From an uncultured Chlorobiaceae bacterium (GTDB taxonomy: Bacteria > Bacteroidota > Chlorobiia > Chlorobiales > Chlorobiaceae), in contig CAILXB010000141.1 in the NCBI GenBank assembly GCA_903838025.1, forward strand, positions 1 through 36,028: DNA of 36,028 nt. Direction: 5' to 3'. Under the pieces are notes generated by a model. It was not told the origin of the DNA, searched no databases, and saw only the letters and a list, made by a program, of their open reading frames with translations. Shown one piece after another: positions 10,521-20,811 of this stretch; the first letter of the stretch is position 1; each line of letters begins with the position of its first letter. The translations under genes and the position numbers were made by a program.

Positions 10521-11147
10521 CTATGTGCCGCCAAGGGTGTCACGCGCCTCTTCAAGCACGGCAAGGGTAATCTCTTTATATCCCATCTCCTCGGCATACT
10601 CTTCAGCCATTGTCCTGAACTTCCCCTGCATAAAGGAGGGCATAGATTGAAACCACTCCTGGGCCTCCTGAGTCCATTTCGCCGACAAACCTCTGGATTT
10701 CAAGCTTTTATTATACTGATGAAGCACATCTTCAACAAAGATTTCAACAGCATCGCCCTCTGAAAGAACATCTGGTGGAAAAATTGTTTCAACAAGAATT
10801 TTATTGCGGATCAAGTGCATTTTCAACTGCGGCAGATAGAGCACCGCTGCCGTAGACTGCGAACTTCCGCATGTCAAAAAGAGCGCAACTTTTTTCCTTT
10901 TAAGATTTTTTTTCAGGTCGCCAAAAATCAAGGCGCCCAAAAGCTGTGAGGCAACAACAAAATTGTACACCGGCGCACCAAGAATGACAAAATCAAATTC
11001 CCCTACAAAACTGTAGTCTGCCAGCGCCCTGCACTTTGCTTTTTCAACATAAACACCTGATTCCGCCAGGCTGAGCCCTATTGCATCAATAATCGCCTCA
11101 GTAGAACCAGTTGAACTCCTGCTATCGTACAAAATAAGAGCTTTCAT
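10521..11147 (-). CDS. Flavodoxin-like protein with C-terminal PCP_red (BchB/ChlB C-terminal) domain
   Basis: N-term MKALILYDSRSSTGSTEAI...FDFVILGAPVYNF; C-term WTQEAQEWFQSMPSFMQGKFRTMAEEYAEEMGYKEITLAVLEEARDTLGGT. Confidence 0.75.
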   Translation of the reverse strand: MKALILYDSRSSTGSTEAIIDAIGLSLAESGVYVEKAKCRALADYSFVGEFDFVILGAPVYNFVVASQLLGALIFGDLKKNLKRKKVALFLTCGSSQSTAAVLYLPQLKMHLIRNKILVETIFPPDVLSEGDAVEIFVEDVLHQYNKSLKSRGLSAKWTQEAQEWFQSMPSFMQGKFRTMAEEYAEEMGYKEITLAVLEEARDTLGGT

Positions 11148-11614: not shown

Positions 11615-11842
11615 ATGGCAAACGGAACAGGCAATGACGTATCAGGCGCCGTCACCAACCTTTTGGAGACATTGGGAAAGCTTGCCCAGCAGCAGGTTGA
11701 TTTATTGACCAGTGGAATCAAGAGCGCAGTGGGGCTTATTGAGCCTCTTGGCAAAACAGCAACGGATCTCGTTGGCAGCGTAATAAATGCACTGAATCAG
11801 GTGTTGCAAAGCGTTTCGGCTGCGATTGCGCCCAAAAAGTAA
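11615..11842 (+). CDS. csmB: Chlorosome envelope protein B (CsmB-like)
   Basis: 75 aa; IEPLGKTATDLVGSVINALNQVLQSVSAAIAPKK, characteristic of CsmB. Confidence 0.88.
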   Translation: MANGTGNDVSGAVTNLLETLGKLAQQQVDLLTSGIKSAVGLIEPLGKTATDLVGSVINALNQVLQSVSAAIAPKK

Positions 11843-11856
11843 GATTTTTTTCTTTT

Positions 11857-11897
11857 AAAAGGCGCCTTGTACCTTTGGTATAAGGTGCCTTTTTTTG
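11857..11897 (+). terminator. Rho-independent terminator after csmB
   Basis: AAAAGGCGCCTTGTACC / GGTATAAGGTGCCTTTT stem (two G-U pairs) followed by T-run. Confidence 0.85.
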
Positions 11898-11929: not shown

Positions 11930-12934
11930 ATGGCCATCCAAAAAAATATCGCAGCTCTCTTCGACACCTGTTGCAGCAAGCCGCTTTCCATTACTAAAAT
12001 TCAAGGCGACGCTTCAAGCCGTCAGTATTTCAGGGTTACAGGTGCGAACAACTCCGCCGTTGCCTGCTATGATCAGGCATTGAACAGCTCATCGGTTGAT
12101 ACCTATCCCTTTCTGGTGGTGCACGACCTCTTGTCGCGGCACGCTCTTCCTGTACCGGCTGTCATGGCAATTGATGCCGAAAAAAACCTCCTGCTTCTGG
12201 AAGATTGCGGTGAAGTGCTTTTGCAGAACCTCTTCAACTCATCAAGAGAGCAAACTCTTCCTGGCCGATACAAGGAGATTCTTGATATACTTGTACAACT
12301 GCAGGCCATAAGGGGACACAACGACCAGATTCCCTTCAGCATCAGTTTTGATAAAGAAAAACTTATGTTTGAATTTGATTTCTTTATCGAGTACGGCTTG
12401 CGAAACTACTTTGCACCAACATTCGATCAGGAGTTAATCGGGAATTTACGATATGAGTTTGAATCCATTGCCGAACTCCTTGTCAAGCCAGAGCACTTTG
12501 TTTTGAACCACCGCGATTTTCACAGCCGCAACATTCTTATTCACCAGAACAAGCCGGTCATTATTGACTTTCAGGATGCCCGCATGGGTCTGCCTCAATA
12601 TGACGCAGTCTCCCTGATAAAAGATTCCTATGTCCAGCTTGAAGTGTCGTTGACTGATGAACTGAAAGCATACCACTATCAGGCACTCGCGAACAATGAA
12701 TTGACCACGATGAGTTTTGACGAATACCTCTTCTATTTTGATATTATGGCCTTTCAGCGAAATATCAAGGCAATAGGTACCTTTTGTTATCAGACCAGAA
12801 TCGCAAAAAACAGCAGCTTTGAGCACTCGATTGCGCCGACATTAGCCTACCTCCCTGATTACATTGAAGCAAGAAACGAACTGAAAAAAGCAGGAAAACT
12901 CCTGCAAACTCTTTTTGAAGGGCACGGACGATGA
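11930..12934 (+). CDS. amgK: Aminoglycoside-phosphotransferase-fold kinase, AmgK-like (MurNAc/GlcNAc anomeric kinase)
   Basis: QGDASSRQYFRV, HRDFHSRNILI, IDFQDARMGLPQYDAVSL, FQRNIKAIGTF; ATG overlap with downstream nucleotidyltransferase. Confidence 0.75.
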   Translation: MAIQKNIAALFDTCCSKPLSITKIQGDASSRQYFRVTGANNSAVACYDQALNSSSVDTYPFLVVHDLLSRHALPVPAVMAIDAEKNLLLLEDCGEVLLQNLFNSSREQTLPGRYKEILDILVQLQAIRGHNDQIPFSISFDKEKLMFEFDFFIEYGLRNYFAPTFDQELIGNLRYEFESIAELLVKPEHFVLNHRDFHSRNILIHQNKPVIIDFQDARMGLPQYDAVSLIKDSYVQLEVSLTDELKAYHYQALANNELTTMSFDEYLFYFDIMAFQRNIKAIGTFCYQTRIAKNSSFEHSIAPTLAYLPDYIEARNELKKAGKLLQTLFEGHGR

Positions 12935-13890
12935 AAGCGTTTGTTCTGGCCGCAGGTCTCGGTACCCGTCTAGCTCCCTTGACCGATCATACACCAAAGC
13001 CGCTGATCCCCATTCTCAATATTCCCAGCCTCTTCTACACCTTTTTTCTCTTGAAACAGGCAGGAATAAAAGAGATTATATGCAACATCCATCATCACGG
13101 CGATGCCATACGGCGAACGATCGAATCAAGCGGACTTTCCGGGCTAACTATCACGTTTTCAGAAGAACCCGTTATTCTTGGCACTGGGGGAGGTCTGAAA
13201 AAATGTGAAAAACTGCTCGGTGATGACAACTTTATTCTGGTCAACAGCGATATTATTACCGATATTGATTTTACGGAACTCATGCAACAGCATAAGAGCT
13301 CTGGACGCGGGGGAACGCTAACCCTTTTTGAAACACCTGAGGCGGCCACCATAGGATATGTCGGCGTTGAGAATGGATTGGTAAAAGACTTCCGGAACAT
13401 GCGCCATACCGGGCTTTACTCCTCATTCATCTATACCGGAGCGGCAGTTCTGAGTCCAGAAATCTTCCGTTTTATGAAAGCTGAATTTTCAGGAATTGTC
13501 GACACGGGTTTTACAGGACTCATTGATAACGGAGGTTTAAGTTATTACCACCATAAAGGGCTCTGGATGGATATCGGTACCATGCACAACTACTGGCTCG
13601 CAAATATTGATATAAATTCCGGTATGCGTGATCTTTTTGAACCAATGCATCGCACAATCGCACTCTCTCCACATTCGATCTCTCCGGATGCTCTTATCAG
13701 CCCCGAGGCCACCATCTCATGCTCCGTCATCGGAGCAGGATGCACTATCGGCGCAGGAAGTACCATCACAAACTCCGTACTCCTTCCGGGAGTCGCAATC
13801 AAACCCGGAAGCACCATCGTCAATGCCATTGTTGACCCCTACACTATAACCATCATGGAAAACACGAAACAAAACAGGACACAGAGATGA
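12931..13890 (+). CDS. murU: Sugar-1-phosphate nucleotidyltransferase, MurU-like with C-terminal left-handed beta-helix repeats
   Basis: MKAFVLAAGLGTRLAPLTDHTPKPLIPILN; EEPVILGTGGGLKKC; C-terminal hexapeptide repeats. Confidence 0.72.
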   Translation: MKAFVLAAGLGTRLAPLTDHTPKPLIPILNIPSLFYTFFLLKQAGIKEIICNIHHHGDAIRRTIESSGLSGLTITFSEEPVILGTGGGLKKCEKLLGDDNFILVNSDIITDIDFTELMQQHKSSGRGGTLTLFETPEAATIGYVGVENGLVKDFRNMRHTGLYSSFIYTGAAVLSPEIFRFMKAEFSGIVDTGFTGLIDNGGLSYYHHKGLWMDIGTMHNYWLANIDINSGMRDLFEPMHRTIALSPHSISPDALISPEATISCSVIGAGCTIGAGSTITNSVLLPGVAIKPGSTIVNAIVDPYTITIMENTKQNRTQR

Positions 13891-15050
13891 TCGCAACAGG
13901 ACTCGATATCCTGCTCAGGAAGAGTGAGCATTTTCAAAACAGGAAGATCGGACTGATTGTCAATCAAACCTCCGTGACTCCTGAAATGAACTACTCATGG
14001 AGCGCGCTGCAAGAGAGGGGAATTCAGGTCAAAATGATTTTTTCTCCTGAACACGGCCTCTTTGCCACCGAGCAGGACCAGATTGCCGTGAATTACCAGC
14101 CGGAGTTGGGCTGTGAAATGGTCAGTCTCTACGGCGACTCGGCGGAGTCACTTCTTCCCGACAAGGCACTGCTCGACAATTTAGACCTTATCATCTTCGA
14201 TATTCAGGATGTTGGCTCCCGCTATTACACCTACATCAACACTCTTGCGCTCTTCATGGAAGCCGTCGATGGCATGGATATCGAAATCATGGTGCTCGAC
14301 CGCCCGAATCCGCTGGGAGGCGCAATTGTTGAGGGGCCACTGCTTGACCCAGCATTCCACTCATTTGTTGGAATTTTTCCGGTACCGGTACGGCATGGCT
14401 TGACCGCCGGTGAACTGGCCCTCTTCTACCGCGACATCAAAAAACTCGATATCAATCTCAGCGTTATCAAAATGGAGGGATGGCAGCGCTCCATGCTCTT
14501 CCCTGAAACAGGCTTGCCCTGGATTCCTCCCTCCCCGAACATGCCGACCTTTGCCACGGCAGAGGTCTATCCCGGCATGTGTCTGTTTGAAGGAATCAAC
14601 GCATCTGAAGGAAGAGGAACAACAACCCCCTTCCAGCTCTCCGGCGCTCCCTTCATAAAACCTGACGACCTTGCCCGCCGCTGCCGGGCATACGGCCTCG
14701 AAGGAGTGCTCTTTCGCCCGGTGTGGTTTAAACCTACATTTCACAAATTCTGCGGCTCTGTCATCGGCGGACTCTGGCTTCAAGTGACCGACCACTCCCG
14801 CTTTCGCTCCTTCGCCACCGGAGTAGCCATGACGGCTGCACTGCATGAACTCTACCCTGAAGAGCTGCAATTTTTAAACGGGGTGTACGAATTCAACGAT
14901 CGCATACCGGCCTTTGATCTTCTTGCTGGCAATTCCACCATCCGCAACTCCATTTTGCAGGGGTGCGATACCGACCTTCTCCTCAACTCATGGAAAGGTG
15001 ACGAAGCTGAATTTTTGAGAATCAAGGCCGATTTTCACCTCTACGAATAA
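13887..15050 (+). CDS. namZ: DUF1343/NamZ-family exo-beta-N-acetylmuramidase, no evident signal peptide
   Basis: FSPEHGLFA, DIQDVGSRYYTYI, VLDRPNPLGG, RHGLTAGELA, PWIPPSPNMPT, YPGMCLFEGINASEGRGTTTPF. Confidence 0.85.
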   Translation: MIATGLDILLRKSEHFQNRKIGLIVNQTSVTPEMNYSWSALQERGIQVKMIFSPEHGLFATEQDQIAVNYQPELGCEMVSLYGDSAESLLPDKALLDNLDLIIFDIQDVGSRYYTYINTLALFMEAVDGMDIEIMVLDRPNPLGGAIVEGPLLDPAFHSFVGIFPVPVRHGLTAGELALFYRDIKKLDINLSVIKMEGWQRSMLFPETGLPWIPPSPNMPTFATAEVYPGMCLFEGINASEGRGTTTPFQLSGAPFIKPDDLARRCRAYGLEGVLFRPVWFKPTFHKFCGSVIGGLWLQVTDHSRFRSFATGVAMTAALHELYPEELQFLNGVYEFNDRIPAFDLLAGNSTIRNSILQGCDTDLLLNSWKGDEAEFLRIKADFHLYE

Positions 15051-15102
15051 CCATAGTCCAGAGATCAGGCAAACACAACGAACCAAAGGATATTAAACGC
15101 TC

Positions 15103-16578
15103 ATGCAGACTCTCGATCTTGCCATTATCATTCTTTTTCTTGCCGGCAATACCCTGTTCGGTCTCTGGCATGGCAAAAGCAACAAAAGTAACCGAGACTA
15201 TTTTGTAGGTGGTCATACCCTGCCATGGATAGTCTCGATGCTCTCCATTGTCGCCTCTGAAACCTCGGTACTTACCTTTGTCAGCGTTCCCGGTCTTGCC
15301 TTCCGGGGTGACTGGAGCTTTCTTCAACTTGCGATGGGCTACATCATCGGCAGAATCCTTGTCAGCTTCATACTCCTGCCGATGTATTTCAAGCAGGGCG
15401 TCAGCTCTATCTACGAAATTATCGGTATCCGTTTTGGCCCCGCCATGCAAAAACTTGCTGCGGTGATTTTTCTTGTTACCCGAACCCTGGGTGATGCCAT
15501 CCGCTTTCTTGCGGCTGGCGTCGTTGTGCAGGTGGTCACGGGCTGGTCACTGCCCCAGTCAGTCATGATTATTGGGATTGTTACTCTGGTCTACACCCTC
15601 TCGGGTGGCATCAAGGCCGTGGTCTGGCTTGAAAGCTTCCAGTTTGCTCTTTACCTTCTCGGAGGCATTCTCTCCATCCTCTTTTTGCTTCAGAGTATCA
15701 ACATCTCCACTGCCGATATCGTGGCCTCGCTTGCCAACTCAAGCAAACTCAAAATCATCAATTTTGATCCTCATATTTTAACCAACCCCTTCTCATTTTT
15801 CAGCGCATTTATTGGAGGCATCCTGCTTTCACTCTCATCGCACGGAGTCGACCACATGATGGTACAGCGCGTTCTCGGCTGCAAAAATCTGAAATCAGCA
15901 AAAAAAGCGATGATAGGAAGCGGCATTTTTGTTTTTTTCCAGTTTTCGGTTTTTCTTCTCGTTGGCTCCTTGCTCTCCATATTTATGCAGGGCGCACCGA
16001 TGGTAAAAGATCGTGAATTTGCCTTCTTTATTGTTCACTACCTTCCAACCGGATTGAAAGGATTGCTGATCGCCGGAGTTCTGTCGGCAGCAATGTCTAC
16101 ACACAGTTCAGCAATCAACGCTCTGGCATCATCAACAGTGAACGATATCCTTGGTGGAAAGGGCTCTCTTGGCCTCTCAAGGCTGATAAGTCTCTTTTGG
16201 GCAATCCTGCTTATCTTCATTGCACTCATGTTTGATGCTGGAGACAAGGCTATTATCATGGTAGGACTAGAAATTGCATCCTTCACCTACGGTGGCCTGC
16301 TGGGACTCTTTCTCCTCTCAAAAAGCAAAAAAGAATTTCATTCTGCCAGCCTCGGCGTCGGACTTGTTGCAAGCATGGCCATCGTTTTTCTGCTTAAATT
16401 TCTGGGCCTTGCCTGGACTTGGTATATCCTCGTCTCTGTTATTGTCAACATCATCTTTGTTTTTATCTTTGAAACTCTCGTCCGGGCTTTTGTTGCTGCA
16501 AATCAGCAAGCCAACGAGAACCGAGAAGTCCCGTCAGTTTCAGGAACTTTCTTCACTAAGTTTCTGACGAATGAATAA
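15103..16578 (+). CDS. Sodium:solute symporter (SSS) family transporter
   Basis: 491 aa, about 13 TM; SNRDYFVGGHTLPWIVSMLSIVASETSVLTFVSVPG, GVLSAAMSTHSSAINALASSTVND. Confidence 0.9.
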   Translation: MQTLDLAIIILFLAGNTLFGLWHGKSNKSNRDYFVGGHTLPWIVSMLSIVASETSVLTFVSVPGLAFRGDWSFLQLAMGYIIGRILVSFILLPMYFKQGVSSIYEIIGIRFGPAMQKLAAVIFLVTRTLGDAIRFLAAGVVVQVVTGWSLPQSVMIIGIVTLVYTLSGGIKAVVWLESFQFALYLLGGILSILFLLQSINISTADIVASLANSSKLKIINFDPHILTNPFSFFSAFIGGILLSLSSHGVDHMMVQRVLGCKNLKSAKKAMIGSGIFVFFQFSVFLLVGSLLSIFMQGAPMVKDREFAFFIVHYLPTGLKGLLIAGVLSAAMSTHSSAINALASSTVNDILGGKGSLGLSRLISLFWAILLIFIALMFDAGDKAIIMVGLEIASFTYGGLLGLFLLSKSKKEFHSASLGVGLVASMAIVFLLKFLGLAWTWYILVSVIVNIIFVFIFETLVRAFVAANQQANENREVPSVSGTFFTKFLTNE

Positions 16579-16623: not shown

Positions 16624-19600
16624 ATGCAAAAAGAGAGCCAAGAATTAGAGGCCCGACAAAAACAACTGCAAGCGGAAAATGCCGACCTCAAGAAAAAAAT
16701 TCAGGCCCTTGAAGAGCGTTCCGCCGCTCTTCAAGTACAAAACCGGACTCTCAGCATGGTTGTGGAGGGAACACAGGCTGGATACTGGGACTGGAATATC
16801 AAAACCGGAGATTTGATCATCAATGCTGAATGGGCCTCTTTGATCGGCTACAACCTCGATGAACTTCAACCCGTCACAGTCAACACCTGGATAAACCTTT
16901 GCCATCCGGATGATCTGCCACGTTCAACGCAACTGCTTGAAGAGCATTTTTCCGGAAAAAGCACTTTTTATGAAATGGAGCTCCGGATGCGCCACAAACT
17001 GGGCCACTGGATTTGGCTGCTCGACCGGGGAATGGTTTTCGAACGCGACGCAGAGGGCCAAGCGCTTCGTATGGTCGGATCCCATCAGGATATCTCTACA
17101 AGAAAACATGCGGAAGAGGCACTCGGCCACAGTCGGGAGTTCGAGCACCTCGTAACTGATCTTGCAAATCAATTCATCAGCCTCCCCTTCGACCATATTG
17201 ATAAGATGATTTCTGACACGCTCCAGCTCATCGGTGAATTTGTCAAGGCTGACCGGAGCTACATCTTTCAGTTCCATGACGATCTTCGCCTGATGGACAA
17301 CACCCATGAATGGTGTGCCAAAGGCATTGAACCGGCAATCGACGAACTAAAAAAAATTGAAACGAGCAACTTTCCCTGGTGGATGGAGCAGATCAGAAAC
17401 AACCACATCATTCATCTTCCCCGGATCGCCGATATGGAGAGTAAAGCCTCGGCGGAAAAAGAGATCCTTGAAGCGCAGGATATAAAATCACTTATTGTTA
17501 TTCCACTTGTTGCTGGCTCGCTCCCCTTCGGCTATATCGGCTTTGATGCCGTAACACAAGAGCGAGAGTGGCATCTTGAAACAATATCCATCCTGAAGCT
17601 TGCAGGAGGCATCATTGCCAATGCGCTGCAACGCAAGACTGTTGAGCACTTTATACAGGCAGAGCTTGATCTTGCCATCAAACTCAACATCTCATCTTCT
17701 GTCAAGGAAACCCTGCAAACTTGCCTTCATGCGGCCATTTTTGCTTCCGGGCTGGATTGCGGAGGTATTTATCTGGTCAACCACCTTGATAAAACAATCA
17801 CCCTTACAATTCATGAAGGGTTACCACAATCATTCATCGATCATTCAGAATCATACGGCTTCGACTCCGAAAATGCCCGACTGATTTTAAAAGGAAAACC
17901 CATCTATCACAAGGCTAACCAGCTTGACCTGAAAAACATTCAAATACTGAAAAACGAACAACTAAGGGCCATTGCCATTCTCCCGATAGCCTATCGCGGA
18001 GAGGTTATTGCCTGCCTCAACGTCGCTTCGCACACGCTGAACCAAGTTCCGGAATTTTCACGAAAAGGACTTGAAACCATTACCTCGCATATCGGCTCGG
18101 CCATCATGCAGGCTCGCCAGGAAGAAACAATTGCTGAGGCAAAAAGTAACCTTGAATCGCTCTTCGATACTATTGACGATTTACTCTTCATTGTCAACAT
18201 GGAGGGCAATGTCATTCACGCAAACGCCGCTGTCGGAAAAAAGCTGGCCTACCCTGCAGACGTTGTTCTCAATAAACATGTGCTTGATTTTCACCCCGAA
18301 GAACAATGGGACAAGGCAAAAGAAAATATTGAAGGGATGCTTGCCGGAACCAAAAGTTCCTGTCTTGTCCCGTTAAAAACCAGCTCCGGAGAGCTCATAC
18401 CTGTCGAAACAAAAATTACAAGGGGGCTCTGGAACAACAACCCTGTTCTGTTCGGCATCAGCCGCGATTTTTCAGAACGGATACTTTCAGAAAAAACCTT
18501 GCGAGAGAGCGAGAAACGCTTCAGGGAGTTGACCGAACTCTTGCCGCTCACTCTTTTTGAAACCGACGCAAAGGGTGTTGTGACCTATTCCAATGCCAAA
18601 AGCTTCGAGGTTTTCGGCTACACCCCCGACATCACCGGAAAAAAAATCTTTGCCATTAATTTCTGTATTCCCGAGGATGCAAAAAAAGCACGTATCCATT
18701 TTCAGGCCATAAAAAAAGGGCAGAATATTTCTGAGGAGTACACCGCACTCAGAAAAGATGGAACAACTTTTCCCGCCCAGGTCTACAGCCTGCCTATCAT
18801 TGAAAACGGTCTGGTCAAGGGAATTCGCGGACTCGTTGTCGATCTTACTGAATTGAAAAAAGCGGAAGAGGCCCAGAGAAGCAGTGAAGTCCAACAAAGG
18901 ATTATCGAAGAGTTTCAGGCACTGATCAACAACATTCCGGGAGCTGTCTATCAAACCAGTGAAGAGGGCAAAACAACACTGCTTTCGGTCATAAGTGAAT
19001 TTCTTGACAAGTATACCAATGAAGAGGTCGAGCATGAACTCTTTGAAACCGGACAACTGATCCATCCGGAAGAGCGTGACCTGTTTTTCGAGTCAAACAC
19101 AAATCTGAAATTGTGCAGAACATCCAAAACTCTTCTCTACCGCATCATCACCAAAAGTGGTGCCGTCAAATGGCTCGAAGACAGAAAAACCTCCGTTTTT
19201 TCCCCCAAGGGCAAATTCACCGGAATCGACGGCATTTTATTTGACGTCACTGAACGCATCATGGCACAAAAAGAGCACCAGATGCTCGAAACAAATCTTC
19301 GCAGAACACAGCGTCTTGAAACCATCGGAACACTTGCGGGCGGTATCGCACATGATTTCAACAACATCCTGACACCAATCCTTGGCTATGCTGAAATGGG
19401 TGGGCTCAGCCAAGGCACCGATGCGTTCCAGCAAGAATATTTCACTGAAATTTATAAAGCTGCTGAGCGAGCAAAACATCTTGTTGCACAAATCCTCACC
19501 TTCAGCAAAGTACAAGAGAGTGCCCAGGATATTGTCAGCGTTCAGGAAATTGTCGATGAAGCTCTGAAACTTCTCCGTCCGTCAATACCATCGACCATTA

Positions 19601-20439
19601 CCATCGAAAAGCGTCTCGACCGCACCTGCCGCACAATACTTGCCGACTCCTCGCAAATCCATCAGGTCATTGTCAATCTCTGCACCAACGCATTCCATGC
19701 AATGGAAGAGTCGGGCGGCCTGCTGACGATTCAACTTCAGGAGATCATTGCCAGCAAGAGCCTGAAAAAACAGCTTCCAAAACTGCATGCAGAGAATTAC
19801 GTAAAGCTCAGCATTTCCGACACAGGCAAAGGAATGGATGAGAGCACTATCGAGCGTATTTTCGAACCATTCTTCACCACAAAATCCGTCGACAAAGGGA
19901 GCGGCCTTGGCCTTTCTGTTGTCCATGGTATTGTCACAAACTTTAACGGAGAAATTACTGTTGAGAGTCGACCAGAAAAAGGAACCACCTTCAACGTCTA
20001 TCTTCCAGTCGTCGACAAGCACGCCGGACAAGTACCCGTAACACAAATCTTTAAAAAAGGATACGGTAGCATTCTCCTGGTGGACGACGAATCGGCTGTA
20101 CTCGGGATGATGACAATAATGGTTACAAAACTTGGCTTCAAAATTCAGGCACTGAGCTCACCCCGACAAGCTCTTGAACTGTTCCAGCAAAACCCCGAGC
20201 GCTTCGACCTTCTCATCACCGACCTGACCATGCCTGAAATGACCGGCATTGAACTTGCCGAAGAGATGCACAAATCGGCTCCTCAACTGCCAGTCATTTT
20301 GATGACTGGCTACGAAAAAGATCTTGAGCCCACCTCTTTTTCCGGGGAGTATGGTATCTGCCAATTACTGAAAAAACCGGTAACCATGACACAAATGGCA
20401 ACAGCAATCAACGAAGTAATTTTTGAAACCCAGGCATAA
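16624..20439 (+). CDS. Multi-PAS/GAF hybrid sensor histidine kinase with C-terminal receiver
   Basis: N-terminal coiled coil, PAS/PAC and GAF segments, HisKA H-box ([24 protein letters not shown]), HATPase N/G boxes, REC ([11 protein letters not shown]...[13 protein letters not shown]). Confidence 0.93.
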   Translation: [1271 protein letters not shown]

Positions 20440-20451
20440 CCAGCTACTCTT

Positions 20452-20811
20452 ATGAAAATTCTTGTTATTGACGATGACGCAGCCGTCAGAAAATTTATCA
20501 GCATGACACTGCAAAGAAAAAAATACAGTGTTATAGAAGCTGAAAACGGCAAAATCGGCCTCCTGCTTCTACAAGAGCACCGCGACATTTCCGTAATGAT
20601 TACCGACCTCATCATGCCCGAAAAGGAGGGAATTGAAACTATTATCGAAGTCCGGCAACAGTTCCCGGCAATAAAAATCATCGCAATTTCAGGTGGTGGA
20701 AAAGTGAGCCCCGAAAACTACCTCGTCATAGCCGATGCCCTCGGAGCAAACACCACCCTGAAAAAACCCTTCAGCGGCCAGGAACTGATCCATGCCGTTG
20801 AAAATCTGTAA
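20452..20811 (+). CDS. Single-domain response regulator (CheY-like)
   Basis: MKILVIDDDAAVRKFI...VMITDLIMPEKEGIE...KKPF. Confidence 0.92.
   Translation: MKILVIDDDAAVRKFISMTLQRKKYSVIEAENGKIGLLLLQEHRDISVMITDLIMPEKEGIETIIEVRQQFPAIKIIAISGGGKVSPENYLVIADALGANTTLKKPFSGQELIHAVENL

Follow-up and report, generated by a model that had tools for sequence, protein, structure and literature searches.

In Pseudomonas, the MupP-AmgK-MurU pathway returns N-acetylmuramic acid (MurNAc) to UDP-MurNAc by means of an anomeric kinase and a uridylyltransferase, bypassing MurA (PMC5371407, PMC5371409). A second arrangement is known from Tannerella forsythia, whose operon reads ampG-ybbC(NamZ)-murTKQ (PMC5388701, PMC7670621). 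The operon of Chlorobiaceae described here is a variant of this already known MurNAc recycling pathway. With Pseudomonas it shares the kinase/uridylyltransferase pair and the MurA bypass; however, the Chlorobiaceae are without AnmK, their MurNAc is predicted to come from a cytosolic NamZ, they have a sodium:solute symporter (SSS) and no AmpG over cut-off, and their MurU carries hexapeptide repeats. With Tannerella, where AmgK and MurU have also been described, it shares a NamZ gene beside a MurNAc transporter (predicted here), but the MurK/MurQ catabolism and AmpG of that organism were undetected in Chlorobiaceae. Other Bacteroidota, including an order mate (G086), likewise have adjacent AmgK and MurU genes, although their AmgK belongs to a separate clade, is fused to a RapZ_C domain, and is unlinked to NamZ or SSS. 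Our literature search returned nothing on AmgK in Chlorobium, on peptidoglycan recycling in green sulfur bacteria, or on DUF1343 together with MurNAc.

The operon lies on the forward strand of the window, by which we mean the whole stretch of 36,028 nucleotides analysed, from an uncultured Chlorobiaceae bacterium. It encodes an AmgK-like kinase of 334 aa with an APH fold (11930..12934), a MurU-like sugar-1-phosphate nucleotidyltransferase of 319 aa with C-terminal hexapeptide repeats (12931..13890), a NamZ of family GH171, predicted to be an exo-beta-N-acetylmuramidase without a signal peptide (13887..15050), and an SSS family sodium:solute symporter, presumed to import peptidoglycan sugar and recognized by PF00474 and its retained operon position (15103..16578). 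ATGA overlaps couple kinase to MurU (12931-12934) and MurU to NamZ (13887-13890), and 52 nt separate namZ from the SSS gene; all of this matches the original prediction exactly in coordinates and strand, and its four family assignments were supported by Pfam profiles and, for the first two proteins, by the best NCBIfam models. The automatically called kinase frame starts at TTG 11867, and the start kept in relatives is ATG 11930.

The window's own genome is 80% complete, and our statements of absence rest on its relatives. Family searches of 98 genomes of the class (86 Chlorobiaceae, family f1, and 12 other order members, families f2, f3 and f4) examined the co-occurrence of the four genes and found the operon in 84 of the 86 Chlorobiaceae, so that a combination first taken to be unusual in a green sulfur bacterium is in fact near-universal in this family. 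Reading of the loci showed the four genes in the same order and strand in 78 of the 84 operon-bearing genomes; contig ends cut the operon in five more (G003, G006, G031, G067 and G074), and in G023, where the operon is split or misassembled, amgK-murU and namZ-SSS stand on separate contigs (L154 and L197) with other sequence beside each. The amgK gene adjoins murU in 83 loci, 75 of which have an overlap of exactly 4 nt, and this precision, together with the order kept in 78 genomes, argues that the arrangement is not due to chance. Two genomes, G050 (99% complete) and G015, lack all four genes and retain the exported NamZ discussed below; such joint loss, along with the tight spacing, points to one functional unit. 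Separately, two genome records each hold two operon copies (L168/L169 in G048, L181/L182 in G069), possibly as a result of mixed bins.

The kinase matches APH (PF01636, E 2e-23), and its best NCBIfam model is AmgK (NF045759; 115 bits, under the cut-off of 550). The nucleotidyltransferase joins an NTP_transferase domain (PF00483) to its hexapeptide repeats, with MurU as best NCBIfam model (NF045761; 143 bits, under the cut-off of 250). Since both proteins fall well short of the equivalog cut-offs, a point that counts against a role in MurNAc recycling, we keep the names "AmgK-like" and "MurU-like". The APH catalytic motifs are retained, as HRDFHSRN (HRDFHxRN) in 83/84 copies and IDFQDA in 84/84, and the motif GTGGG occurs in 85/85 copies of the MurU-like protein. 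Phylogenetic analysis joined the Chlorobiaceae kinases with spirochaetal AmgK (support 100/99), apart from the RapZ-fused Bacteroidota kinases, and in one scan of public genomes the closest kinases outside Chlorobiaceae were spirochaetal (42-48% identity); AmgK and MurU, whose nearest relatives are spirochaetal, look acquired. Two spirochaetal amgK genes (L218, L219) directly follow ftsZ in a division and cell wall cluster, one of these contigs also carrying murG, murC and ftsA (identified by reading the sequences), and in a third case murU and then a truncated SSS gene come after amgK. An acidobacterial cluster (L247, 3092-6966) encodes a signal-less NamZ, a CYTH-like protein, MurU and AmgK. 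Such neighbours, found independently of one another, link this clade of kinases to peptidoglycan.

The same evidence bears on the possibility that the kinase and nucleotidyltransferase serve another sugar (GlcNAc, mannose or heptose) for surface glycans, with NamZ supplying or accompanying that sugar. Solved NTP-transferase matches include GMPPB at a similar score, AmgK acts on GlcNAc too, and the scores under the equivalog cut-offs would suit such a role. We nevertheless consider it unlikely, given the constant linkage to NamZ, the fact that AmgK and MurU are the best curated models, the placement of the MurU-like protein outside the GMPP/UGP clade (100/98), and the position of the closest AmgK genes, which adjoin ftsZ and lie near murC. 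The MurU-like protein also fails to cluster with the Pseudomonas MurU of known structure, which speaks against MurNAc recycling, although the deep forks of this tree are weak.

Elsewhere in the dataset, many Bacteroidota encode a short MurU beside an AmgK that is joined in one protein to the C-terminal domain of RapZ (L047 5306-6778, L055, L056, L057, L271 and L278), with PF22740 (RapZ_C) found in the L047 fusion protein; a literature search returned nothing on RapZ together with AmgK. In Bdellovibrionales and Sulfurovum MAGs, AnmK is encoded beside AmgK and MurU (L252, L265, L281).

The original prediction had envisaged direct anabolic re-entry of MurNAc without MurQ or MupP, to be checked by looking for the absence of murQ, anmK and nagZ. 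Family searches found AnmK in 0/86 Chlorobiaceae and in 11 of the 12 other members of the order, while MurQ over its curated cut-off was found in 0/86 Chlorobiaceae, 0/2 f2 genomes and 10/10 genomes of families f3 and f4. Weak MurQ matches in Chlorobiaceae were not counted, being partial, below cut-off, and located in longer frames or short SIS-like proteins; their position and length suggest GlmS and GmhA. NagA was over cut-off in none of the 98 genomes searched, and neither was AmpG, a weaker absence because just 2/5 responding control genomes passed. The expected absence thus held for AnmK and MurQ, which supports direct re-entry, and failed for NagZ: GH3/NagZ-like proteins are present, both of those examined (n = 2) having signal peptides. 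With AnmK undetected, no MurQ, NagA or AmpG over cut-off, and signal peptides on the two GH3/NagZ-like proteins examined, the AmgK-MurU anabolic route is the sole MurNAc route detected in Chlorobiaceae; lacking AnmK, it would give MupP no evident source of MurNAc-6-phosphate. Both AnmK and AmgK are encoded in the f2 genomes G086 and G087, and in G086 a RapZ-fused AmgK adjoins a short MurU. One order therefore holds three MurNAc configurations: AnmK with MurQ (f3 and f4), AnmK with AmgK and MurU (f2), and AmgK and MurU with a cytosolic NamZ (Chlorobiaceae).

The operon NamZ is covered over its full length by NamZ_N (PF07075, 5e-75) and NamZ_C (PF20732, 3e-47), and it keeps 48 of the 50 columns that are at least 93% conserved in other NamZ; Q65 and N118 are two clade-specific changes. 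From this family membership, we infer exo-N-acetylmuramidase activity on MurNAc-GlcNAc. Bacillus subtilis NamZ (YbbC), of the same family, is exported and clustered with murQ. The operon protein, as originally proposed, is not exported: none of the 85 copies read has a signal peptide or a hydrophobic N-terminal stretch, in-frame upstream sequence included. In-frame upstream extensions were considered as signal peptides and rejected, since they read as MurU sequence out of frame. A second NamZ, with a hydrophobic leader indicating export, is encoded by the own genome and most Chlorobiaceae. In the NamZ tree, the operon type and the exported Chlorobiales NamZ fall into separate clades, which speaks against descent of the one from the other by recent duplication; the sister row of the operon type sits on a long branch, and where this type came from is uncertain. 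Among other Bacteroidota, NamZ is near AmgK in G361 only, about 5 kb apart.

The symporter matches SSF (PF00474, E 5e-24) and resembles the solved SSS structure 5nv9 (1e-26), which we take to be a sialic acid symporter, and SMCT1 (7e-33). Import of MurNAc or MurNAc-GlcNAc is presumed, although the symporter's closest relatives of solved structure transport iodide, monocarboxylates and vitamins, which weighs against a role in recycling. The comparison first drawn with MurT of Tannerella forsythia as an SSS protein went unconfirmed, as we found no literature statement to that effect and MurT has been called a novel transporter family (PMC7670621). No SSS gene stands beside NamZ in 40 NamZ loci of other Bacteroidota. 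In sister families (G086-G089), a symporter homologue is convergent with the gene of an exported NamZ, and in several other f4 genomes the homologue is not adjacent to NamZ.

This convergent pair would fit product transport and, together with the exported NamZ paralogue of the own genome and most Chlorobiaceae and the exported GH3 proteins, favours a reading in which exported NamZ and NagZ complete the digestion in the periplasm and the symporter takes up the resulting free MurNAc (and GlcNAc), the cytosolic NamZ being auxiliary and acting on an occasional disaccharide. We regard this as possible but lean against it, since the operon NamZ keeps its conserved residues and overlaps or nearly abuts murU, which argues for a regular substrate. 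Against recycling of wall sugar through the operon stands that the cytosolic copy would have no clear purpose if the exported NamZ already sets MurNAc free, and that the GH3 signal-peptide statement is based on two proteins. Because exported NamZ and GH3 proteins may free MurNAc in the periplasm, MurNAc-GlcNAc is a presumptive imported species. A dedicated transporter could also indicate that the module scavenges foreign peptidoglycan rather than the cell's own wall. The Chlorobiaceae are photoautotrophic, however, no NagA or MurQ was found for catabolism, and two genomes live without the operon, which argues against an obligate supply. Even with the precedent of Tannerella forsythia, which scavenges MurNAc (PMC7670621), we judge such scavenging very unlikely.

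Directly upstream of amgK, 82 genomes carry a gene for a 75-aa protein (11615..11842, forward strand in the window) that has no Pfam or NCBIfam match and presumably resembles small chlorosome envelope proteins. It is followed on the same strand by a terminator-like hairpin of 17 bp (11857..11893), identified by terminator scan and folding (-29.1 kcal/mol, z -5.6), whose 3' end is 36 nt from the amgK start; gene and hairpin (11615-11893) leave little room for a separate amgK promoter. Positions 10521-11147 on the minus strand encode a flavodoxin-like protein with a C-terminal PCP_red domain. Downstream of the operon, the window encodes at 16624-20811 a hybrid PAS/GAF histidine kinase of 1271 aa (16624..20439, forward strand; Pfam) and then a response regulator of 119 aa. 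Homologues of the histidine kinase occur downstream in 53 genomes, the response regulator in 61, and either in 62, making the hybrid histidine kinase a frequent, non-universal neighbour. It may be compared with the GppX hybrid two-component control of Tannerella.

We conclude that the operon quite probably provides every cytosolic step needed to recycle the cell's own peptidoglycan sugar. In the periplasm, the exported GH3/NagZ-like enzymes and exported NamZ that we observed, together with amidases, which we assume, would cut wall turnover products. The symporter would carry MurNAc-GlcNAc and/or MurNAc over the inner membrane, cytosolic NamZ would split MurNAc-GlcNAc into MurNAc and GlcNAc, AmgK would phosphorylate MurNAc, and perhaps GlcNAc, at C1, and MurU would make UDP-MurNAc, which would enter at the MurC step with MurA and MurB bypassed. 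The substrates and the direction of transport in this scheme are predicted, set against an observed background of gene content, gene order, a missing export signal and absent alternative routes. More tentatively, the SSS symporter may import MurNAc-GlcNAc intact, with cytosolic NamZ splitting it and one kinase phosphorylating both sugars at C1 for direct re-use, without 6-phosphate intermediates, and the operon may be a horizontally acquired replacement of AnmK-based recycling that became fixed across green sulfur bacteria; we consider this fuller version plausible but short of probable.

The three alternative MurNAc routes within one order mean that the swap between them can be placed on the tree and tested. 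For the Chlorobiaceae, our results predict that the wall is recycled although AnmK, MurQ and NagA are missing and no AmpG can be recognised, that NamZ works in the cytosol, that a symporter transports a peptidoglycan sugar, and that tolerance to fosfomycin depends on the operon.
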